Shown: piece by piece, positions 9,300 to 19,019 of the stretch
Layout: every line of letters begins with the position of its first letter
Numbering within the stretch: position 1 is the first letter of the stretch
NCBI RefSeq assembly: GCF_023806635.1
Contig: NZ_JAMTDQ010000029.1
Span: forward strand, 81,895 to 145,894
Reading direction: 5' to 3'
Source of the DNA: Accumulibacter sp.
GTDB lineage: Bacteria; Pseudomonadota; Gammaproteobacteria; Burkholderiales; Rhodocyclaceae
DNA: 64,000 nt
Program-made: the position numbers and the translations under genes
Notes under the pieces: generated by a model
What the model saw: the letters and a program-made list of their open reading frames with translations, nothing else
Databases searched by the model: none
What the model was told of the DNA's origin: nothing

Positions 9300-9788
9300 C
9301 AGCATCCTCCTCACATCTGATGCGGCGATGCTAAAGTATCAGCGCGTCACACGCAAGGGACGATGCCAAACCCCATGGAACGAGGCATCACGGCCATGTC
9401 CTGACCATTCCAACCCCCGCGCCCGAGCGTTCACGCCGGGCGCACTTCCTCCTGGATGAAACGCCACAGCGCTCCTTGTCCGCGATGCCCATCCCACTGC
9501 ATCGCCCGGACAACACGAAGTCCGCTCCTTCGATGTCTTTCACCCCACCGCCACGGTATGATTGGACATGGTTGTCGCGACCGGATCCGCTGCCGGCCGA
9601 TCCGCGCAGCGAGCGCTTTCCGGCGTGGCGAAGCGGGTCGCTGGTCTGCTCGGACTCGCGTGTCGGGGGCGCGAGCGAGCGGCGGCATCGCCCCCGGATC
9701 GACGAGTCGTGGCCTCGCAGCAAACCAGCACGATCGTGCGCACCCCGGGGGTGGGTGCGCGGGACGCTTACAACCGGAGCAGCACGGC
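9300..9788. other. 489-bp gap upstream of the conflict/DGR locus, no gene identified
   Basis: All open frames on both strands lack motifs and ribosome sites. It must carry the divergent control regions of the toxin-antitoxin operon and of the DUF4062-MoxR-FGE operon, and marks the left border of the accessory island. No promoter could be assigned with confidence. Confidence 0.4.
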
Positions 9789-11636
9789 ATGCGACTCTAT
9801 CTGTCTTCGACGCTTTCCGACCTGGAGGAGGAGCGGCGGGCGGTCAAGGAGGTCCTCAGCGGTCAGTACACGGTCGTCGAGAGCTACGAGGCCGATCCGC
9901 GACCACTCTGGCAAAGCTGTGTCGCCGACGTCGCCACGTGCACGATCTACATTGGCATCGTCGGCCTGCGCTATGGATTCGTTCCGCCGGGGCAGGACAA
10001 GTCGATCACCGAACTCGAGTTCGACGCCGCGCTGGCGGCGGGTCTGCCTTGCTTCGTCTTCGTCCGGGAAGTCGATGCCATCCCAGCCTCCCGGACCGAT
10101 CTGTATACGAAGCAGAATGATCCGGCGCTGATCGAAGCGTTTCGCGCACGCCTGTCGTCCGGCGCGAGCGGCATCCCGCGGGCAGCGCTGTTCACCACCG
10201 CCGACGATCTGAAGGTGAAGGTTCTCAGGGCGCTGCAGCGGCAGCCTGCGCCGGCGCTCGATCGGCCCGTCGGCCTGCCATCGCCGCCGGCCGCAGCGAA
10301 GCCCGCCGCTCCTGAGACCGCTCCACCGCCGCCATCGCCATCGCCGCCCCTGACCGAACTCCAGAAGCTGCTCAAGAGCTACCTGCAGGACAACTGGGCA
10401 GCCTTGCACGGTCATCCGGCATTCCTGCGCGCCAACCTGTTCCCGGACCTCGATCAGGCGGTGCCGCTCAGCGCCGAGCGCGTCTTCGCCATGGCGTGCG
10501 ATGGTCCGCCGATCGAGCTTCTGCTCGGCGCCCGGGAATTTTTTCAAGCCAGGGCGGCGAGGGGTGTCTCGCCCGCATCGTCCGTCTCCGAAAGCGACGG
10601 CATCGTCTGCAGCGCCATCGTCCGTTGCGCGCTCGTCGCCGCCGAGCGTTACGTCAGGGGCAAGGTCGACGGCGGTGCGCATCGCGATCACGACCCCGTG
10701 TGGAGTTCCGATCATCTGGTGGCATGCATCGAAGCCGCGGTGCGGCTGGGCTTTGGGCTGTGTTTTTCGCCAGGGAGCCCGCAGCCCGAGAATGTCTTCC
10801 GCCTCGTCCATCCGGTTCCGGAACCCGGAGTGGCGGGGGAAGAAGGCGCCGCGCTCTCGGCGGCTGAACTCCTGGCAACGATCGAGCGGCGCGAGTTCCA
10901 GACCGGTCAGGACTATGACCCCGATTACCTGCGCGCCTTCATTCGACGTCGTGCCAGCGGACTTGGTACGGCGCTGGTGGTGAGCACGGATGCGGCAGGC
11001 CGTTTCGAGAGCGCGGAACGGCGAGCGGAACTTCTCAAGGATCTGCGCGAGCAGTTCGATCTGCGCACCTTCTTCCAGCGGCGAGGCGAAGACGCGATGC
11101 CGCCCTGGGCCAGACAGATGCAGGACAGCCTGCTGCATGCGCTTGGCCCGGTTCTTGACATCTCGCTGCACAAGGCGGCGATCACGGAGAAAGACATGGC
11201 CCAAAGAGAATCCGAACGTGCCGCTGCACCGGCGGTCACCAACCTCACGATGACTTTCAACGCCCCCGTCGGCACGCTCGCGCAGGCCAACGCCCCGGGG
11301 GCGCAAGCCGCCGCCCGCGACATCGTCAACGGTCTGCAGGGCGCCGAGTTGCTGCAGGTCCTGGCGGCGGTGCAACGGGCGATCGATGCCTGCGCCGCGC
11401 AGCCTGGCGACGCGGCGCAGCGGCGGCTGATGGAGCAGGAACTCGATGAGGTCCGCACGGTGTTGCAGGGAGAAGGGCGCTCGGCGTCCGATGCCAAACT
11501 CGTCAAGCGCTGTCTCGACGGTGTCGAGACGAGCGCCAGGGCATTGAGCAACGGCCGCGCGATCGTCGAAACACTCGCCCCCGTGTGGGCCGGCCTCAAG
11601 CAGTCCTGGCCCGCTTTTCTCGCGCTCTTCAACTGA
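9789..11636 (+). CDS. DUF4062 (TIR-like) putative effector protein
   Basis: A 615-aa multidomain protein. Residues 1-~100 (RLYLSSTLSDLEEERRAV... CTIYIGIVGLRYGFVPPGQ...SITELEFDAAL) are a DUF4062 domain, a TIR-like/nucleoside-deoxyribosyltransferase-like fold common in bacterial NLR-like and defence proteins. A Pro/Ala-rich linker follows at ~151-187, then a mostly helical middle region, a short beta/linker segment (NLTMTFNAPVG) near 480 and a helical C-terminal segment. No signal peptide or TM helix. It is separated from the MoxR ATPase gene by 15 bp, in the same operon as the DGR-diversified FGE protein. That context suggests an effector or signalling component whose activity is gated by the ATPase; this is inference. 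GGAG lies ~10 nt upstream of the ATG. Confidence 0.75.
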   Translation: MRLYLSSTLSDLEEERRAVKEVLSGQYTVVESYEADPRPLWQSCVADVATCTIYIGIVGLRYGFVPPGQDKSITELEFDAALAAGLPCFVFVREVDAIPASRTDLYTKQNDPALIEAFRARLSSGASGIPRAALFTTADDLKVKVLRALQRQPAPALDRPVGLPSPPAAAKPAAPETAPPPPSPSPPLTELQKLLKSYLQDNWAALHGHPAFLRANLFPDLDQAVPLSAERVFAMACDGPPIELLLGAREFFQARAARGVSPASSVSESDGIVCSAIVRCALVAAERYVRGKVDGGAHRDHDPVWSSDHLVACIEAAVRLGFGLCFSPGSPQPENVFRLVHPVPEPGVAGEEGAALSAAELLATIERREFQTGQDYDPDYLRAFIRRRASGLGTALVVSTDAAGRFESAERRAELLKDLREQFDLRTFFQRRGEDAMPPWARQMQDSLLHALGPVLDISLHKAAITEKDMAQRESERAAAPAVTNLTMTFNAPVGTLAQANAPGAQAAARDIVNGLQGAELLQVLAAVQRAIDACAAQPGDAAQRRLMEQELDEVRTVLQGEGRSASDAKLVKRCLDGVETSARALSNGRAIVETLAPVWAGLKQSWPAFLALFN

Positions 11637-11651
11637 CCGACAGGCAAACCG

Positions 11652-12704
11652 ATGACCGCAGCCGCCACCCCCAATTCTCCCTTCGCCGCCCTGCAGCCGG
11701 GCGCGGTCCAGGAACTCGGCGAATCCGCCGGCCAGGCGCGCGCCTGGCACCAGTGGTCGGCGGCCGAAATCGACGCGCTGACGCTGGCCTACGCGGCGCG
11801 CCGGCCGCTGCTCGTGCGCGGCGAGCCGGGCACCGGCAAGACGCAGCTCGCGCGTGCCGCGGCCGACGCGCTCGGCTGGCGCCTGCACGCCGAAACGATC
11901 CATCCGCGCTTCGAGCCGCCCGAGCTGCTGGCGCGTTTCGACGCCGTCCGCCGGCTCGCCGACGCGCAGGCCGGCGCAGGCGCCGAAGACAGGCTCACCG
12001 ACCTGAAGCGCTACTGGCGGCCCGGCGTGCTGTGGAAGGCCTACGGCTGGGAGTCGGCGCAGGACTTCCTGGCCGACGGCGAGCGCGGCATCGATCCGGC
12101 GGCGCCGGCCGGGCACGTCGTGCTGATCGACGAGATCGACAAGGCCGACAGCGACCTGCCGAACAGCCTGCTCGAAGTCCTCGCGCAGCGCAGCTTCCGC
12201 GTCGAGCCGCTGGCGCAGCCGATCGGTGGGCCGAATGCGCAGCCGCCGCTGATCGTCATCACCACCAACGAGGAACGCGAACTGCCGGCAGCCTTCCTGC
12301 GCCGCTGCATCGTCCTGACGCAGCAGCCGGACCCCGGAATGAGCTATCGCGACTGGCTCGTCAGACGCGGCGCGGCGCATTTCGCCGCATTGCCGACGGC
12401 CAGCCCGCCGCGCGCCGAGCTGATCGCGGCGCTGATCCTCGAGCAGGCCGCCGACCAACTGGTCAGCGACAGGCAGCAGGTGAGCAATCTCAACCTGCCG
12501 CCGCCCGGCCTCGCCGAATACCTCGACCTGCTCTACGCCTTGCACGAACTCTTTCCGGGCCAGACCGGCGTGCAGCGGCAGTGGCTCGGTCGCCTCTCGG
12601 CGTACGGCTATCTGAAGCAGGGCGTCGTTGCCGGCCAATCCGGCGTGTCGCAGACGCGGGCGCCGATCGACGGCCTTGCCGCGGCGCCGGCGGAGAATGG
12701 CTGA
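11652..12704 (+). CDS. MoxR-type AAA+ ATPase
   Basis: A 350-aa AAA+ ATPase. Walker A GEPGTGKT is at 57-64, Walker B with sensor context VVLIDEIDKAD near 155-165, and sensor 1 in IVITTNEERELPAAFLRRC, with the arginine-finger region following. MoxR ATPases act as ATP-driven remodelling partners of vWA-domain proteins. Here the stop codon touches the ATG of the 961-aa FGE protein, so the two are translationally coupled and probably form a complex. MoxR ATPases encoded next to a vWA-like/FGE protein and a TIR-like protein are known components of computationally described NTP-dependent conflict systems. No missing motif is seen, so the enzyme should be active. Confidence 0.88.
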   Translation: MTAAATPNSPFAALQPGAVQELGESAGQARAWHQWSAAEIDALTLAYAARRPLLVRGEPGTGKTQLARAAADALGWRLHAETIHPRFEPPELLARFDAVRRLADAQAGAGAEDRLTDLKRYWRPGVLWKAYGWESAQDFLADGERGIDPAAPAGHVVLIDEIDKADSDLPNSLLEVLAQRSFRVEPLAQPIGGPNAQPPLIVITTNEERELPAAFLRRCIVLTQQPDPGMSYRDWLVRRGAAHFAALPTASPPRAELIAALILEQAADQLVSDRQQVSNLNLPPPGLAEYLDLLYALHELFPGQTGVQRQWLGRLSAYGYLKQGVVAGQSGVSQTRAPIDGLAAAPAENG

Positions 12705-15590
12705 ATGAGCCCTCGCGGTCTCGCCGGCCGCTCCGACCTGCTGCGCGCCGCGGTCGCCGTCCACGGCGCGCAAGCCGTCGGCAGCGACGAGGCGATCGCC
12801 GCCGCCCTCGCGCCGCTCGCCCGCCTGCTCGCCCTGCATCCGCAGCCGCAGCGGGCGGAACGGAGCGATCTGCCGGTCGACGAGCGGCAGCAAGCCGCCG
12901 CCGCCAGCGGCCGCAGCGGATCCGGGGCGCCGGCCAGCGCCGCCAGCCGCCGGCTACCGCTGTCGGCGGCGCATTTCGCGCTCGTCGAGTACCGTGTCGA
13001 GGCCGCGGCGACGCCGCCGCACAGCCAGCCGTTGCCGCCGCTGACCCGCCTCGACTGCCAGCCGCGGCGATCCGGCAGCGCGCCGCACTCGCCGCTGGTT
13101 GGCCGCACGCGGCTGTGGCCGGCGTTGCAGCGCGCGCTGGCGTCGCCGCGACGCGGCCCCCTCGACGTGCCGGCGCTGGTCGGCGAACTGTCGCGCGCGC
13201 GTTCGCCGCAGCGCCTGCCGCGGCGGCTGCTGCGCCGCTGGGGCGGCGAGATGGACGTCGTCGTCGATGTCGCGCAGCGGCTCGTTCCCTACGACGCCGA
13301 CTACCGCGAGTTGCTCGGCGAAGTGCGCCGCCGGCACGGCGAGGGCGGTCTGCGGCTGTGGGTCGTCGATGACTCGCCGTTCACCGCGCGCGCGGTCGCT
13401 GCGCCGGGTTGCGCGTCGCCGCCCGCCGCAGCCGGGCCGATTCCCTTGCCGCCGCCGGCGACGCGCGTGCTGATCCTCGGCGACCTCGGGCTGCTCGCCG
13501 GCGATCCCGCGCGCGCCGCGGCGTGGCAGGAGTTCACGCGCCGCCTCGCCGCGCACGGCGCGCTGCCCGTCGCCTGGCTGCCGATGTCACCGGCGCTGGT
13601 GCCGGCGGAGGCGCTGCGTCACGCTGCGCTGCACTGCCTCGATGGCGCGCATGGCCTGCGCGCGTTGCGCGCGCGCAACGCCGGCACGGCGACGGCGCCT
13701 GTTTCGCCACCCGTCGCTCCGTCTGGCGACGCGCCGATCGGCGCGGCGGCGCGGCACCCGCTGCTGCCGGCGCTGCTGACGCGGCTGGCCTGCTGCGTCC
13801 GCGTCGAACCCGGATTGCTGCGCGCCTTGCGCCGTATCGACGCCGATACCGCCGCCGAACCCGGCCTCGAGGCGATCGCCTGGTCGTACGCGCCGGCGGT
13901 CGCCGCCGGCAGCCGCTTCTGTGAACTCAGCCCGGCCGGCGTCGCCGACTACCGCGATCGCTTCTCCGGACTCGCCGCCGCCGAGCAGCAGGAAATCCTG
14001 CGCCGGATCCTCGACGCGCACGCCTGGCGCGGTCGCGCGACCGAAAGCGCCGAACTGCTGATCTGGCAGGCGCATGCCAGGCCGGAAGCGGCCGGCGAAG
14101 AATTCGGCGGCCGGCTCGGCGAAGCGCGCGACTGGTTCGCGCGTTTCGGCGCCGCTGCCGCGGAGACGGTGGGCGACGCCGCCGGCTATGCCGGCGATCT
14201 GTTCGATCGCCATGGCGGCGACCGCGCGTGGATCGAGGCGAACTCGTCGCTGCTGGCGCCGATCTGGGCGCTGGCCGGCGTCGACGACATCCCCGACGGC
14301 CTGCGGCCGGCCGACGTCGCCGCCGCCCGGCGGCGTGCCGGCAGCGAGGCGGTGGCGAGCAGGTGGAGGCTGCGGCAGCAGGACGATCGCTTCGTCCTGC
14401 TGCCCGATCGCGGCGAAGAGCTTGCGGGTCGCTGGCCGGCGTTGACCCTCGAGGGTGGTGCCGTCTGCAGCCTGCGCGGCGATGCCGGCTCGCGGCAGCG
14501 ATGGATCGAAGCGCGCGCGGCGCCGTTGACGCTGCCGCTCGCAGACGCGGCGCAGCTTTCGGCGATCGCCCTCGACAGTGGCCGCCGCCATCATCGTCTG
14601 GCGCGCCTGCAGCGCCCGCCGTGGGCGAAGGAGCTGGGACGCGACAGCCACGGTCTGTATCTCGACGTCGAACTCAATGGCGTCGTCCAGCGTTTTCGCT
14701 GGATCGACCCGGGAGAGTTCCTGATGGGGTCGCCGGGCGATGAACCCGGGCGCGAGGAGAACGAGGGACCGCGCCACCGCGTGCGCCTGACCCAGGGCTT
14801 CTGGCTCGCCGACACCGCGTGCACGCAGGCGCTGTGGCGGGCGGTGATGGGCGGAAGCAATCCGAGCGCTTTTCAGGACGACGCGCGCAACCCGGTCGAG
14901 AACGTGTCGTGGGATGACACGAGTGCCTTCCTGCAACGGGTGTCTTCGCTGGTTCCCGGCGTCGTCGCCGAACTGCCGACCGAGGCCGAGTGGGAATACG
15001 CGTGCCGGGCGGGAAGCGAGACGCCGTTCAGTTTCGGTACGACGATCACTCCCGAGCAGGCGAACTACGATGGGAATTACCCCTATGCAGGCGGCGAGAA
15101 AGGCGTGGACCGGCAGAAGACGGTGCCGGTGAAGTCGTTCGCGCCGACCCGCTGGGGTCTGTACGAGATGCACGGCAACGTCTGGGAGTGGTGTGTCGAC
15201 GGGAAGCGCGCTTACGACGGCAGCGACGAGGAGAATCCGCGCGGCCCCGAGGACGTGGGCGAGTGGCGCGTCGTGCGCGGCGGCTCGTGGGACGACGGGG
15301 CCGTGGGGCTTCGCTCCGCCTGTCGCGACGAGTGGCACCGCGCCATCCGCCTCGGCCCCCTGGGGTTTCGCTTTGCCCTGAGGTCCATCGGCCAGGAGCA
15401 GGCTGCGGGCGCGGAGCGCCCGCAGCAGGACTTCAACCCGGCGGGGCCGGAGGCCCCGCCGGGTTTGGCTGCCTTCCCGGGACGGGAAGGCAGCGTGGCT
15501 GCTTCGGCGGATGCCGAAGCAGCCACGGGCGGGCGCGGCAAGCTGGCCAAGGCGACCCCGAAGCGATCACGCAAGCAGACAAAGAAGTGA
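12705..15590 (+). CDS. DGR target 1: large sensor protein with C-terminal FGE/C-type-lectin-like domain
   Basis: A 961-aa protein. The N-terminal ~300 residues are Ala/Arg-rich and include a segment (EMDVVVDVAQRLVPYD... LRLWVVDDSP... TRVLILGDLGLLAGD) that looks like a degenerate vWA-type Rossmann domain; this assignment is tentative. The middle region is helical. From ~655 the FGE-sulfatase (SUMF1/EgtB/PvdO) fold begins (RFRWIDPGEFLMGSPGDEP, ENVSWDD, LPTEAEWEYACRAG, GLYEMHGNVWEWCVDG, RVVRGGSW). Residues 855-893 are encoded by variable repeat VR1 and end in GFRFALRS. The FGE core lacks the paired cysteines of true formylglycine enzymes, so a ligand-binding role is likely. A 68-residue tail follows, ending in a basic KRSRKQTKK, with its DNA folded into four hairpins. 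The ATG abuts the MoxR stop. Confidence 0.85.
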   Translation: MSPRGLAGRSDLLRAAVAVHGAQAVGSDEAIAAALAPLARLLALHPQPQRAERSDLPVDERQQAAAASGRSGSGAPASAASRRLPLSAAHFALVEYRVEAAATPPHSQPLPPLTRLDCQPRRSGSAPHSPLVGRTRLWPALQRALASPRRGPLDVPALVGELSRARSPQRLPRRLLRRWGGEMDVVVDVAQRLVPYDADYRELLGEVRRRHGEGGLRLWVVDDSPFTARAVAAPGCASPPAAAGPIPLPPPATRVLILGDLGLLAGDPARAAAWQEFTRRLAAHGALPVAWLPMSPALVPAEALRHAALHCLDGAHGLRALRARNAGTATAPVSPPVAPSGDAPIGAAARHPLLPALLTRLACCVRVEPGLLRALRRIDADTAAEPGLEAIAWSYAPAVAAGSRFCELSPAGVADYRDRFSGLAAAEQQEILRRILDAHAWRGRATESAELLIWQAHARPEAAGEEFGGRLGEARDWFARFGAAAAETVGDAAGYAGDLFDRHGGDRAWIEANSSLLAPIWALAGVDDIPDGLRPADVAAARRRAGSEAVASRWRLRQQDDRFVLLPDRGEELAGRWPALTLEGGAVCSLRGDAGSRQRWIEARAAPLTLPLADAAQLSAIALDSGRRHHRLARLQRPPWAKELGRDSHGLYLDVELNGVVQRFRWIDPGEFLMGSPGDEPGREENEGPRHRVRLTQGFWLADTACTQALWRAVMGGSNPSAFQDDARNPVENVSWDDTSAFLQRVSSLVPGVVAELPTEAEWEYACRAGSETPFSFGTTITPEQANYDGNYPYAGGEKGVDRQKTVPVKSFAPTRWGLYEMHGNVWEWCVDGKRAYDGSDEENPRGPEDVGEWRVVRGGSWDDGAVGLRSACRDEWHRAIRLGPLGFRFALRSIGQEQAAGAERPQQDFNPAGPEAPPGLAAFPGREGSVAASADAEAATGGRGKLAKATPKRSRKQTKK
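15267..15382 (+). repeat. DGR variable repeat VR1
   Basis: Aligns without gaps to TR 17136-17251 (116 nt). The first 24 nt, which contain no adenine in TR, are identical. Of the 20 core TR adenines, 14 are substituted (to G, T or C); there is only one mismatch at a non-adenine (G to T). Encodes VVRGGSWDDGAVGLRSACRD...GFRFALRS in the reading frame of target 1. Adenine-specific divergence from TR is the signature of mutagenic retrohoming. Confidence 0.95.
15403..15526 (+). repeat. array of four GGA-loop hairpins downstream of VR1
   Basis: Four perfect stem-loops in tandem, inside the coding sequence for the C-terminal tail of target 1. (1) 15403-15425: 10-bp stem, GGA loop. (2) 15435-15465: 14-bp stem, GGA loop. 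(3) 15468-15494: 12-bp stem, GGA loop. (4) 15495-15526: 14-bp stem, GGAT loop. The stems differ in sequence but share the loop, and gaps are 9, 2 and 0 nt. The first begins 20 nt after the end of VR1, the same distance as after VR2. In the Bordetella phage DGR a hairpin/cruciform 3' of VR promotes target recognition; these are candidates for that role. There is no T run, so they are not intrinsic terminators. Confidence 0.9.
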
Positions 15591-15609
15591 AAGAGGAGAG
15601 CGATCAGCG

Positions 15610-16080
15610 ATGACCCTGCGTTTCTTCGCCATCCCGGCCTGCGACCCCGTGGCGGTCGAGGCCGAACTCAACCAGTTGCTCGCCGCAAGCCGGGTGCTGA
15701 CGATCGATCGGCATTTCGTCGCCTGCGGCGAGTCGTCGTTCTGGGCGGTCTGCGTGCGGATCGCCAGCGGCCCGGGTCCGCTGCCGCAAGCGCTGAAGGC
15801 CGATCAGGGCAGCGCCCGCCGCGTCGATTATCGTGAAGTGCTCAGCGAAGCCGATTTTGCCGTCTTCGCCAGGCTGCGCGAACTGCGCAAGAGCATCGCC
15901 GAGGCCGAAGGCGTTCCGTGATACGCGGTGTTCACCAACGAGCACCTGGCGAGCATGGTGCGTGGCAAGCTGAAGACGCTCGACGCGCTCGGCCGGATCG
16001 AGGGGGTGGGGCCGGGGCGAGTCGATCGCTATGGCGCGCGCTTTCTCGCGCTGCTCGAGCAGGCGCTGGCGCCGGCGTGA
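15610..16080 (+). pseudogene. DGR accessory HRDC-domain gene, interrupted by in-frame TGA
   Basis: The frame begins at ATG 15610 behind GAGGAG and would encode 156 codons, but codon 104 (15919-15921) is TGA. Before it: MTLRFFAIPACDP... FARLRELRKSIAEAEGVP; directly after it, in the same frame: YAVFTNEHLASMVRGK, then GRIEGVGPGRVDRYG. Together this is a continuous HRDC domain, and the stop falls in the middle of it. HRDC proteins replace Avd as the accessory factor in a class of DGRs and sit directly before the RT, as here (9 bp gap). One base change, an assembly error, or a true null mutation would explain it. As written, only a 103-aa protein with half the HRDC fold would be made. Confidence 0.85.
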
Positions 16081-16089
16081 GCAGCGCGC

Positions 16090-17097
16090 ATGCAGCGCCA
16101 GGCGATCACCCTCGCAGCACTTGCCGAGCGCAGGAATCTCGAACTCGCGACCTGGAAGGCGGCGCGCGGCAAGAGCAGCCGGCCGGCGGTGGCGCGTTTT
16201 CTCGATCGGCTCGACGAAAATCTCGACCGGCTTGCGGCCGACATCGTGAGCGAGCGGGCGCCGCAGGGGCGCGCGGTCCGGTTCACGATCCACGACCCCA
16301 AGCGGCGGACGATCCACGCGGCGTGTTTCGCCGACCGCGTGCTGCACCATGCGATTCTCAATCTGGCCGAGCCGCGCCTGGAGCGGATGCTGGTCGATGG
16401 CTGTCACGCCTGCCGGCGCGGCAAGGGCGTCCATTCGGCGGTGGCCGCGGTGCAGCAGAGCTTGCGGGCATACCCGTGGTTCGCGCAGGTCGACATCGAC
16501 GCCTATTTCGCGTCGATCCGTCACGACCTGCTGCTCGAACTGCTCGCCCGACGCTTCAAGGGCGAGCCCTTCCTGCGCCTGCTGGCGCGCATCCTGACCT
16601 GCGGGGCGACGGCTGGAGCAGGCGTCGGCCTGCCGATCGGCGCGCTGACCTCGCAGCACTTCGCCAACGCCTTCCTCGACAGCGCCGACCGCCTGCTGCT
16701 CAGGCAACCGGGTTGCGGCGGGCTGGTGCGTTACATGGACGACATCGTCTGGGGCTGCACCAGCCGGCAGGCGGCCGCGGAGAGCGTCGCGCTGCTTGCG
16801 GCGCACCTGGCGGACGAGCGCGCGCTGAGCCTGAAGCCGCGGCGGCGCATCGCCCGCTCGGCAGAGGGGACGCAGTTCTGCGGCTTTCGCATCCGGCAGG
16901 GCGTCATCCTCGCCAGCCGGCGCAAGCTGGCGCGCTTTCGCGCCGCGCTGCAGCGGATCGAGCGCGTCGCGGCGACCGGCACGGTGGCGGAAGCCGACCT
17001 GCAGCGCGCCAACGAACTCGCTCTGGCGACGCTCGACGGCTGCCAGAGCCTCGGTTTCCGGCAGCGGCTGTTGGCGGCGTACGAATTTCAGGTATAG
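16090..17097 (+). CDS. DGR reverse transcriptase
   Basis: A 335-aa reverse transcriptase. Motifs in order: KRRTIHAACFADRVLHHAI (RT1-2), the RGKG segment, QVDIDAYFASIRHDLL (RT3, metal-binding Asp), GLPIGALTSQ at 180-189 (RT4, the form with SQ that distinguishes DGR RTs), catalytic YMDD at 215-218 (RT5), and the RT6-7 region GTQFCGFRI. No maturase or endonuclease domain is present, so it is not a group II intron RT. It copies the TR RNA with adenine-directed errors for transfer into VR. It follows the HRDC accessory gene and is followed 32 bp later by the TR. All catalytic residues are present, so the enzyme itself looks functional. Confidence 0.95.
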   Translation: MQRQAITLAALAERRNLELATWKAARGKSSRPAVARFLDRLDENLDRLAADIVSERAPQGRAVRFTIHDPKRRTIHAACFADRVLHHAILNLAEPRLERMLVDGCHACRRGKGVHSAVAAVQQSLRAYPWFAQVDIDAYFASIRHDLLLELLARRFKGEPFLRLLARILTCGATAGAGVGLPIGALTSQHFANAFLDSADRLLLRQPGCGGLVRYMDDIVWGCTSRQAAAESVALLAAHLADERALSLKPRRRIARSAEGTQFCGFRIRQGVILASRRKLARFRAALQRIERVAATGTVAEADLQRANELALATLDGCQSLGFRQRLLAAYEFQV

Positions 17098-17129
17098 TGG
17101 GGCAGGGATGTCGGTCACTGCAAAGGAAA

Positions 17130-17251
17130 GCCACCCGCGTCGTGCGCGGCGGCTCGTGGAACAACGAGGCCAGGAGGCTTCGCTCCGCCTGTCGCAACGA
17201 GAGGCACCGCGCCAACCGCAACGACAACCAGGGGTTTCGCTTTGCCCTGAG
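17130..17251 (+). repeat. DGR template repeat TR
   Basis: A 122-nt non-coding template starting 32 bp after the RT stop. Read in the VR frame it would encode RVVRGGSWNNEARRL... with six AAC codons. Every adenine lies in a codon (AAC, AGG, GAG, CAC, GAC, CAG) in which substitution cannot create a stop, as expected of a selected template. VR1 and VR2 match it except mainly at adenines. Its 3' flank (CTGAGCTCGATGG) differs from the flank shared by both VRs (CTGAGGTCCA), fitting IMH* versus IMH. Confidence 0.95.
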
Positions 17252-17311
17252 CTCGATGGAGCCAACGGCATGGACTTGCCGAGAACCATGGACCAGACGC
17301 GACGTCCTGCC

Positions 17312-17329
17312 GGCACGGCTTGCCGTGCC
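17312..17329 (+). repeat. short hairpin downstream of TR
   Basis: GGCACGG-CTTG-CCGTGCC, a 7-bp stem (8 bp if the loop is TT) 60 nt after the TR. It lacks the GGA loop of the VR-linked hairpins and has no T run. It may be part of the structured TR transcript or a weak transcription end; its role is unknown. Confidence 0.4.
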
Positions 17330-17430
17330 CGCGAACCGCAAGGCGCCCGGGGCGCCGGTAGGCGAGAACGGTGGATGCCGGCGCCGACAGCCCCCCGGGT
17401 CGCCGCCTCCGCCTGCCACCGCCCCGCCCG

Positions 17431-18348
17431 ATGAAGCGCGCAGCGCTCGCGACCGGCGCGCACTTTCCGTCCGAAGACGCGCGGCGGCCGCCCGTACTGC
17501 CGCCTGCCTGCGCGAGCGCCTGGGGTGACGATGCCTACGGGCTGTGGATCGACGTCGACCTGGCTGGCGTCGTGCAGCGCTGCCGCTGGATCGAACCCGG
17601 CGAGTTCATGATGGGCTCGCCGGAAGACGAGCCGGAAAGAGTTGAAGACGAAGGGCCGCGCCATCGCGTGCGCCTGACCACCGGCTTCTGGCTCGCCGAC
17701 ACCGCCTGCACACAGGCGCTGTGGCTGGCGGTGATGGGCGGGGACAATCCGAGCGCTTTCCAGGAAGACGCGCGCAACCCGGTCGAGAACGTGTCGTGGG
17801 ATGAGGTCAGTGGGGCCGGTGGTTTCCTGCAGCGCGTGGCTGCGCTGGCGCCCGGCGTCGTCGCGGAACTGCCGACCGAGGCCGAGTGGGAGTACGCGTG
17901 CCGGGCGGGCAGCGAAACGCCGTTCCATTTCGGCGCGACGATCAGCCCGGAGCAGGCCAATTACGACGGCAACCATCCGTATGCGGGAGGCAGGAAAGGC
18001 GAGTTCCGGCAGAAGACGGTGCCGGTGAAGTCCTTTGCGCCCAATGGCTGGGGTCTCCACGAGATGCACGGCAACGTCTGGGAGTGGTGTGCCGACGGGC
18101 TCCGCGAGTACGCTGACGAGACGGTCGAGGATCCGCGTGGCCCGGAGGGCGACGCCACCCGCGTCGTGCGCGGCGGCTCTTGGTTCGTCGGGGCCTGGGG
18201 GCTTCGCTCCGCCTACCGCCTCGGGGGGCTCCGCGACTACCGCGACGACTTCCAGGGGTTTCGCTTTGCCCTGAGGTCCACCAGCCAAGAGCAGGAGGCA
18301 GGCGCGGAGCGCCTGCCTGCGGCAAGCGGGGTCACGCGGGACGCGTGA
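17431..18348 (+). CDS. DGR target 2: FGE-domain-only variable protein
   Basis: A 305-aa protein that is essentially a free-standing FGE/C-type-lectin-like domain. The shared part (LWIDVDLAGVVQRCRWIEPGEFMMGSPEDEP... HGNVWEWCADG... GFRFALRS) is closely similar to the C-terminal third of target 1, so one copy arose by duplication. It lacks the N-terminal vWA-like and helical regions. Residues 242-282 are encoded by VR2. ATG at 17431 is the first start that gives a plausible short N-terminal tail; no strong ribosome site is visible, and expression may depend on read-through from the RT/TR transcript. It could compete with or complement target 1 as a sensor, or be secreted by other means (no signal peptide seen). 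The stop codon lies inside the second GGA-loop hairpin. Confidence 0.85.
   Translation: MKRAALATGAHFPSEDARRPPVLPPACASAWGDDAYGLWIDVDLAGVVQRCRWIEPGEFMMGSPEDEPERVEDEGPRHRVRLTTGFWLADTACTQALWLAVMGGDNPSAFQEDARNPVENVSWDEVSGAGGFLQRVAALAPGVVAELPTEAEWEYACRAGSETPFHFGATISPEQANYDGNHPYAGGRKGEFRQKTVPVKSFAPNGWGLHEMHGNVWEWCADGLREYADETVEDPRGPEGDATRVVRGGSWFVGAWGLRSAYRLGGLRDYRDDFQGFRFALRSTSQEQEAGAERLPAASGVTRDA
18154..18275 (+). repeat. DGR variable repeat VR2
   Basis: Aligns without gaps to the whole TR (17130-17251, 122 nt). In the core, 16 of 20 TR adenines are replaced, and there are four non-adenine mismatches (G-T, G-A, T-C, C-A), probably older drift. It encodes VVRGGSWFVGAWGLRSAYRLGGL...GFRFALRS. Its substitution pattern is independent of VR1, so the two targets have been diversified separately. 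Confidence 0.95.
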
Positions 18349-18353
18349 CCCCG
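18296..18353 (+). repeat. two GGA-loop hairpins downstream of VR2
   Basis: Hairpin 1 at 18296-18318 (10-bp stem, GGA loop) starts 20 nt after VR2, exactly as after VR1. Three of its ten base pairs differ from the VR1 hairpin and each change is compensated on the other strand, so the structure rather than the sequence is conserved. Hairpin 2 at 18327-18353 has a 12-bp stem and a GGA loop, and contains the stop codon of target 2. The gap between hairpins is 8 nt (9 nt after VR1). Confidence 0.9.
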
Positions 18354-18567
18354 GCGGCGACCTGTCCCGGTTGGTTCCGGCACTGCTGAACCACGTACCA
18401 CCGTTGCATGATCGGCTGCGGTTGGCTCGTATCCCTTCGGCGCGCGGCATGATCCTGGCCGGCAAGACCACATCGTGCCGGAAGCGGCCGCTCGCATCCC
18501 CCCGTCGTCTGCAGCCGCGAGAACAATCAGTCCTGCAGGGTGCAGTCCGGCAGGAGGCTCCCCTGCA

Positions 18568-18792
18568 TCACGCTGCCAACAGATCGTGCAGCCGGGTGGC
18601 TGTCTGCTCCGGCACCTCCACGGCCTCGAAAAGAGAAGCCGGGTAGAGAAAGTCCTCGCCGGAGTCGTCGATGATCCGCAGCATGCTGTGGCTGTCCGCC
18701 GGGGCAAGCACTTCATAGAGCCGGCCGAGGGTCAGGTCATCCGTCGAGAACTCGCCAAATCCTTCGCGAGACAGGCAAACCACAAACCTCAT
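18568..18792 (-). CDS. small conserved-looking hypothetical protein
   Basis: A 74-aa protein (MRFVVCLSREGFGEFSTDD... IIDDSGEDFLYPASLFEAVEVP) that I do not recognise by function. The alternating beta pattern and the DDSGEDFLYPA segment look like a compact, soluble domain. The ATG at 18792 is preferred over 18798 because AAGGA lies 6 nt upstream of it. It overlaps the end of the next minus-strand gene, so the two form a bicistronic unit. No toxin or antitoxin motif is seen. It points toward the DGR locus and is separated from it by ~215 bp without a gene. Confidence 0.6.
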   Translation of the reverse strand: MRFVVCLSREGFGEFSTDDLTLGRLYEVLAPADSHSMLRIIDDSGEDFLYPASLFEAVEVPEQTATRLHDLLAA

Positions 18793-19019
18793 AGCCATTC
18801 CTTTATCTTGAGTTTCACCTTGCCGATGCCATGCGCCTCATACCAGTGCAGCTCGGCCCTGGCGGTCGTTCCATCAAGCAGACGCACCGTGGCGATCCCC
18901 TTCTTCTTCCGCCAACAGCCAACCCCGTATCGCTGCCGCAGCAGGGCAAGCTCCCGGATGCCACTGCCTTCGGCGATGGTCTGGACATCCACGATCCTGC
19001 CGACAATACAGAATTCCAT
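18789..19019 (-). CDS. small conserved-looking hypothetical protein
   Basis: A 76-aa protein (MEFCIVGRIVDVQTIAEGSGIRELALLRQRYG...WRKKKGIATVRLLDG... ELHWYEAHGIGKVKLKIKEWL). Similar short ORFs with the ELHWYEAHGIG ending are widespread hypothetical genes; no function is known to me. Its last codons overlap the start of the downstream 74-aa gene by 4 bp, so the pair is co-translated. Its base composition is lower in GC than the housekeeping genes, fitting an accessory region. Confidence 0.65.
   Translation of the reverse strand: MEFCIVGRIVDVQTIAEGSGIRELALLRQRYGVGCWRKKKGIATVRLLDGTTARAELHWYEAHGIGKVKLKIKEWL

Follow-up and report, generated by a model that had tools for sequence, protein, structure and literature searches.

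Tandem GGA-loop hairpins behind the variable repeats of an Accumulibacter diversity-generating retroelement, a probable multiplied 3′ target-site element

Diversity-generating retroelements (DGRs) deliver their cDNA to a target by an unsolved route, on which a hairpin located 3′ of the variable repeat (VR) gives a main handle; in the literature covered, the experiments on this hairpin concern the element of the Bordetella phage BPP-1 only. In BPP-1, the hairpin is needed for efficient homing, its stem acting as a structure and its loop by its sequence, and formation of a DNA hairpin or cruciform was demonstrated (Guo 2011, PMC3240598; this paper and, unless stated otherwise, those cited below are drawn on in excerpt). 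The same excerpts describe the hairpins of phage DGRs as having stems of 7–10 bp and a 4-nt GRNA loop, 4–34 bp from the VR, and cite unpublished predictions of hairpins at the majority of chromosomal DGRs. Nanoarchaeal DGRs have a GRA trinucleotide loop and a hairpin located within the target gene (Paul 2015, PMC4372165; PMC5006420), and a 2022 review mentions one or more stem-loops flanking the initiation of mutagenic homing (IMH) sequence (PMC8867640). Here, we describe six hairpins with a GGA or GGAT loop behind the two VRs of a DGR in a 64,000-nt stretch of an Accumulibacter sp. genome (contig NZ_JAMTDQ010000029.1, positions 81,895 to 145,894; hereafter, the window). In our view they are probably this DGR's 3′ target-site element in multiple copies, set in an array, and have a predicted role in the entry of cDNA into the VR.

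A list of all hairpins in the window with a perfect stem of at least 8 bp and a loop of 3–8 nt contained 40 entries, of which five had a GGA loop and one a GGAT loop, and these were exactly the six behind the VRs (Table 1). A first-pass annotation of this DNA, made from the sequence without database searches, had reported these hairpins and loops, with stems of 10, 14, 12 and 14 bp after VR1 and of 10 and 12 bp after VR2; two of the stems proved to be one pair longer (11 and 15 bp). It had also placed the first hairpin 20 nt after each VR, and the 10-bp stem shared by the two first hairpins indeed begins after 20 nt at both sites, an 11th pair being present at VR1 only. As likewise noted there, these 10-bp stems differ between VR1 and VR2 at three pairs (the 6th, 9th and 10th from the loop), all three of which are compensated, and the VR1 array lies inside coding DNA, in the tail of the frame of the first target gene. 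When folded with DNA parameters and compared with dinucleotide shuffles, the VR1 tail gave z = −9.8 and the VR2 tail z = −4.6. Outside the locus, 250,931 nt (about 6% of the genome) were scanned on both strands, and no GGA hairpin with a stem of at least 9 bp was found; among 24 triloop hairpins with a stem of at least 8 bp in the same sequence, one had a GGA loop (8 bp). GGA hairpins unrelated to DGR targets, whose spread over the genome would have spoken against a role at these sites, were thus not widespread in the 251 kb examined. No GGA hairpin was found in the 300 nt downstream of the template repeat (TR) of the window.

Matches to the reverse transcriptase (RT) with an E value of 1e-30 or better were obtained in 22 of 395 genomes of the family, and a profile search of the genus at E 1e-40 gave 16 of 28 genomes; TR/VR pairs were found by script in the extracted loci. 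The Accumulibacter clade comprised 14 loci, 13 from the genus and one (L041) from another, neighbouring genus in the same family. Under a strict rule (at least six perfect pairs, a GNA, GGAT or GGCT loop, and a position no more than 180 nt from the VR end), 23 of the 26 VRs of the clade were followed by at least one hairpin and 20 by at least two, with a maximum of five. These 26 VRs are not independent, since they include those of near relatives of the window (L036, L049, and L278). The 59 strict hairpins had a GGA loop in 52 cases, the others being GAA (three), GGAT (two), GTA (one), and GGCT (one). In the controls of the clade, the same rule was satisfied by none of 28 upstream stretches and after one of 15 TRs. 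Outside the clade, at least two strict hairpins were found at 2 of 174 VRs (1 of 73 HRDC-type, 1 of 94 Avd-type, and 0 of 7 mixed), namely in L115, an HRDC-type locus of a Kiritimatiellae metagenome-assembled genome (MAG) with two GGA loops, and in L246, an Avd-type locus on a viral contig with a GCA and a GAA loop. The observation is real, and the array is strongly conserved in the clade.

The largest array, in L071 (minus strand, after 5376 in reverse-complement coordinates), contains five perfect GGA hairpins with loops 30–36 nt apart, and a spacing of about 30 nt was seen again in L046, L048, and the window. In L049 (genome G158), the RT matches in residues 217–335 only and may be broken, the arrays and HRDC being kept.

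In an analysis blind to the fold, every distinct CGGAG or GGGAC word within 180 nt after a clade VR was taken and the paired bases were counted outward. The CGGAG words after clade VRs (n = 59) had 6.4 pairs on average, with at least five pairs in 66% of cases, compared with 1.4 pairs and 0.9% for those far from VRs in the same loci (n = 216). GGGAC words had a mean of 9.2 pairs after clade VRs (n = 19), compared with 1.3 at other sites of these loci (n = 112). For CTCCG, the antisense word, the three occurrences after clade VRs gave a mean of 1.7 pairs, none of them reaching five. The covariation score of a set picked by 5-mer (20 rows) was 0.542, versus 0.193 when shuffled and at most 0.126 when slid, and that of a second 5-mer set (16 distinct rows) was 0.844, versus 0.185 and 0.159, respectively. 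The stems covary and the loop is conserved in the clade, the fold being kept while the stem changes. The proposal of the annotation that the fold and the loop, and not the sequence, are under selection holds in this respect, but it was too exclusive: a core GGC(G/A)C-GGA-GCGCC is common to hairpin 1 of all 12 VRs of seven window-like loci (a set chosen by this core), and the outer pairs of hairpin 1 include G.T and broken pairs besides the compensated ones. Less close loci have other cores.

The target-site reading is based on three features of the hairpins: a location just 3′ of the VRs and not of the TR, stems that covary, and conservation of the sense-strand loop. The hairpins share with those of BPP-1 and other phage DGRs a GC-rich stem just 3′ of the VR, a free stem sequence and a conserved sense-strand loop (PMC3240598), so that the parallel drawn in the annotation with the single 3′ hairpin aiding the Bordetella phage DGR is in line with the findings of Guo 2011. 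A function in homing is likely. Unlike phage DGRs, however, the clade has two to five tandem GGA-triloop stems per VR, the window having four plus two with stems of 10–15 bp, and the phage-type 4-nt GRNA loop was not found among the window loops (five GGA and one GGAT). The 3-nt GRA loop and the position inside the target gene, which five of the six loops and the in-frame VR1 array display, are shared with the nanoarchaeal DUSEL4 DGR (PMC4372165), but there the host is an archaeon, one hairpin is present per DGR and the excerpts mention no array. Other HRDC-type DGRs, such as that of Treponema denticola, likewise carry an HRDC gene beside the RT gene (PMC4891356), and the words hairpin, inverted repeat, and stem-loop are absent from the main text of that paper. 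A DNA stem structure is also read by a related retroelement in the case of group IIC introns, but in those stem-loops, which correspond to terminators, the loop sequence matters little and there is no VR (via PMC3240598). No mention of tandem hairpin arrays at DGR targets was met in the DGR literature searched, in the portions of text covered. Since the GRA triloop and the in-gene hairpin had already been described (PMC4372165, PMC5006420), it is the tandem array that remains new, and the novelty that the annotation had claimed for a tandem array with a GGA triloop applies to the former and not to the latter. As far as our searches reach, the tandem array as a trait of one clade and the split of loops by lineage are new.

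Perfect stems with paired changes could also arise without selection on the fold if template switching copied one arm onto the other. The 14–15 perfect pairs of some stems, which exceed the 7–10 bp of phage DGRs (PMC3240598), and the half-degraded palindromes seen beside perfect ones in homologues (the fourth hairpin of L071, VR2 versus VR1) would fit such mutational self-correction, but this process explains neither the predominance of one loop (GGA in 52 of 59), nor the sense-strand bias, nor the place after the VRs, nor the absence of GGA hairpins of at least 9 bp from 251 kb of the genome, and we regard it as unlikely. Alternatively, a hairpin cluster at the 3′ end of the target mRNA might serve termination, mRNA stability, or translation. 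The position at gene ends, the strong folding of both tails, and the proposal of hairpin clusters as terminators (PMC8355165) are compatible with a role at the RNA level; however, no T tract follows the stems, which rules out an intrinsic terminator, and none of four terminator-like matches in 12700–18800 corresponds to any of the six hairpins. Moreover, the VR1 array is within a coding frame directly followed by the HRDC and RT genes, GNA-loop hairpins of at least 8 bp are absent from the surroundings of the genome's three other FGE genes (C93, C83, and C23, all in the 251 kb), and in BPP-1 it is DNA that was shown to form hairpins or cruciforms (PMC3240598). An RNA element is therefore an improbable explanation.

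MITE-like (miniature inverted-repeat transposable element) inverted repeats have been described in Thiohalocapsa DGR loci (PMC10907252), which raises the question of whether a dispersed repeat family, MITE-like or of the REP/REPIN (repetitive extragenic palindromic) kind, could stand beside the targets by chance. The array units share little sequence beyond the loop and the closing pairs, not a single GGA hairpin of at least 9 bp was present in the 251 kb, and the position is tied to VRs across species, so that we attach hardly any probability to this explanation. A search for a tandem sequence repeat found none in the array, and Rfam families were ruled out, the only match being a tRNA at the window edge.

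The loops were also classed in a wider sample. Profile scans covered at least 80 cellular and at least 80 viral loci, samples among the matches listed, and 203 distinct VRs were classed within 160 nt; VRs with less than 100 nt downstream, or whose first 50 nt were the same as those of another, had been dropped. Among the HRDC-type VRs of this sample, 43 of 101 had a GGA triloop and 48 any GNA triloop, and none had a GRNA tetraloop, the corresponding upstream controls being 5, 8, and 0 of 97. Avd-type VRs had a GRNA tetraloop in 27 and a GNA triloop in 22 of 94 cases (GCA 11, GAA 7, GGA 5, and GTA 3), versus 0 and 4 of 88 upstream. Seven VRs with both accessory matches showed no GRNA and one GAA loop, and one VR had no accessory match; a GAGA hairpin at +172 of the HRDC-type locus L147, found within 200 nt, is an exception. 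The word GCGGAGC or GAGGGACGA was present within 180 nt of 51 of the 73 HRDC-type VRs outside the clade. In the cellular sample, from which four Accumulibacter-clade or sister loci (L088, L089, L091, and L093) were excluded for these counts, GCGGAGC was found downstream in 34 of 81 stretches and upstream in 1 of 76, and GAGGGACGA in 17 downstream stretches and none upstream. We infer that GAGGGACGA forms a GGA triloop with a G-C closing pair and two G.A pairs beneath it. A long hairpin is not a feature of all HRDC-type DGRs: folding of seven examples gave z < −4 for three (L111, L102, and L167) and z of −0.7 to −1.5 for the other four.

Thirty of 160 loci, with an RT match that was missing or too short, were left out of the RT tree. 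In this tree, the HRDC and Avd types part once, deeply, with a few mixed loci. Loop type and accessory gene, whose association is strong by count, are thus confounded; we do not treat the association as independent evidence, and the split of loops is no proof of a reading of the loop by HRDC. In the same genus, the Avd-type DGRs (L279, L281–L283, L285, and L287–L295) have none to three hairpins after the VR, with mostly GCA or GACT loops, one GGA loop in L281 and no hairpin in L279; the GGA array therefore follows the DGR lineage and not the host. Tentatively, these data could reflect a lineage-specific loop code, in which HRDC-type DGRs would read GGA triloops (GC-GGA-GC or GA-G-GGA-C-GA apices) and Avd-type DGRs GRNA loops, the clade array being a multivalent landing site and a replication road-block holding the target single-stranded; this is possible, though we would not favour it at present. 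A prediction of the GGA/GRNA split between DGR lineages is that the loop has to match the machinery, and the split may also help to recognise the targets of HRDC-type DGRs.

If the array is a target-site element, its action may be pictured as follows. Once the VR region became single-stranded, as lagging-strand template or through supercoiling or transcription, the sense strand would fold into the GGA hairpins, which would hold the VR open and flag it for the RT complex, and the antisense mutagenised cDNA would be taken in after pairing with the open VR. The GGA loops are on the sense strand, with which the antisense cDNA has to pair. If the template is that of the lagging strand, an Okazaki fragment coming in would run into the array first and the VR afterwards, and several strong hairpins in a row would therefore lengthen the time during which the VR is open. 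In a 2026 study in E. coli, deletion of the stem-loop impaired repair severely but not fully, a lagging-strand model was favoured, and co-directional replication favoured editing (PMC12875486). GNA loops are stable in DNA, to a degree that depends on N (PMC6479982). We think that a DGR protein reads the loop, and that stability alone is not what counts, because GGA is preferred over the other stable GNA loops (GAA, GCA, and GTA). HRDC is a candidate for this reader only by association, its frame in the window being interrupted; the RT/HRDC complex, which the annotation had proposed to land on the array, is likewise a guess, given this interruption and the single split of loop and accessory gene on the RT tree. 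For a nick site, the other role that the annotation had suggested, no support emerged, though no analysis was aimed at one. The natural arrays, with two to five hairpins, covarying stems and a fixed loop, are a set of variants in number, stem, loop, and spacing, and such variants bear on the choice between the hairpin as a binding site and the hairpin as a means of keeping the DNA open.

Several observations weigh against a target-site function of the array, or limit it. Six of the 26 clade VRs lack two strict hairpins, so that the array is not indispensable; both VRs of L038 and VR2 of L037 have no strict hairpin, and one each when a mismatch is allowed. The sister loci L044 and L070 (a Zoogloea MAG) have no perfect hairpins; L044, whose contig is from a Zoogloea MAG, was left out of the clade tally, and with its two VRs at least two hairpins are present in 20 of 28. 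Nine loci (L039, L040, L047, L054, L277, L280, L284, L286, and L296) gave no TR/VR pair in the search by script, and in the clade loci among these, perfect GGA hairpins of at least 8 bp numbered two in L277, one in L039 and in L040, and none in L047. The annotation had suggested comparing hairpin number with target activity, but the number did not rise with the share of adenines replaced (rho −0.28, p 0.17; 26 rows, two VRs entering twice). Hairpin counts for this correlation were loose and took in chance matches, namely a poly-G at L045 VR2 and a distant GGAT at L036 VR2; after VR2 of L045, a long G run is followed by a C run, likely an assembly artefact. The count of doubly changed pairs was not above that of shuffles, 104 and 73 of 500 shuffles reaching it; as the covariation rows are related, these shuffle counts are not probabilities. 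Outside the clade, counting Watson-Crick pairs only, GGGAC showed no excess of pairing after VRs over other sites (n = 29, p 0.96), and CTCCG was slightly more paired there (n = 14, p 0.009). Homing of BPP-1 was reported to be orientation-independent (PMC3240598), and no experiment on an HRDC-type DGR was met in the literature searched. If the origin of replication is at dnaA and the terminus opposite, the array-bearing DGRs of genomes G018 and G158 are co-directional with replication, but a second DGR in G018 (3830384, minus strand) is head-on and the Avd-type DGRs of G048 and G015 are co-directional as well, which makes this support from replication direction weak. Finally, because the HRDC gene of the window carries a stop, the element may be impaired here. 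Set beside these points, the proposal to examine homologous targets bore out the hairpins in most of them, with at least one behind 23 of the 26 VRs, covarying stems and a prevailing GGA loop.

The assignment of the locus to a DGR relies on a group-II-intron-like RT, which has a Pfam match and whose alignment consensus contains GLPIGALTSQ, taken here to be the DGR-type SQ motif, and on TR/VR pairs that differ at TR adenines at both VRs. Among the matches listed, the closest named relative of the RT is that of Candidatus Accumulibacter contiguus (91% identical). In the HRDC gene, the piece 15922–16077 matches Pfam HRDC with E 4.6e-10, and the piece 15610–15918 has the beginning of this domain at its end, with an E of 0.011 that does not reach the curated threshold. 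The intervening TGA is in frame inside the domain, where the frames of the relatives L088 and L049 are open, and may indicate a pseudogene, a strain variant, or a sequence error.

Table 1. Coordinates of the hairpins and DGR components in the window.
Feature	Coordinates	Strand	Remarks
Hairpin 1 after VR1	15402–15426	+	11 bp, loop GGA
Hairpin 2 after VR1	15435–15465	+	14 bp, loop GGA
Hairpin 3 after VR1	15468–15494	+	12 bp, loop GGA, G-C closing pair; identical in L036 and L049
Hairpin 4 after VR1	15494–15527	+	15 bp, loop GGAT
Hairpin 1 after VR2	18296–18318	+	10 bp, loop GGA
Hairpin 2 after VR2	18327–18353	+	12 bp, loop GGA, G-C closing pair; overlaps the stop of the 17371–18348 frame
First target gene, C-terminal FGE-sulfatase domain	12705–15590	+	Open reading frame and domain match
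VR1, 3′ part of first target gene	15267–15382	+	14 of 15 differences from TR at TR adenines
HRDC accessory gene	15610–16080	+	Frame broken by TGA 15919–15921; domain found piecewise
RT	16090–17097	+	Pfam RVT_1, E 4.5e-12; GLPIGALTSQ conserved in RT alignment consensus
TR, template repeat	17128–17251	+	TR/VR comparison by script
Second target gene, FGE-sulfatase domain	17371–18348	+	Open reading frame and domain match; start codon uncertain
VR2, second target gene	18152–18275	+	17 of 21 differences from TR at TR adenines; 4 elsewhere

Genes for a DUF4062 protein and a MoxR-like AAA ATPase are located upstream of the first target gene, at 9456–12704, an arrangement reminiscent of the conflict systems known from DGR targets (PMC10907252). 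A hairpin with a CTTG loop was observed at 17309–17332, 58 nt past the TR, and likewise after the TRs of L036 and L049; it may belong to the TR RNA.

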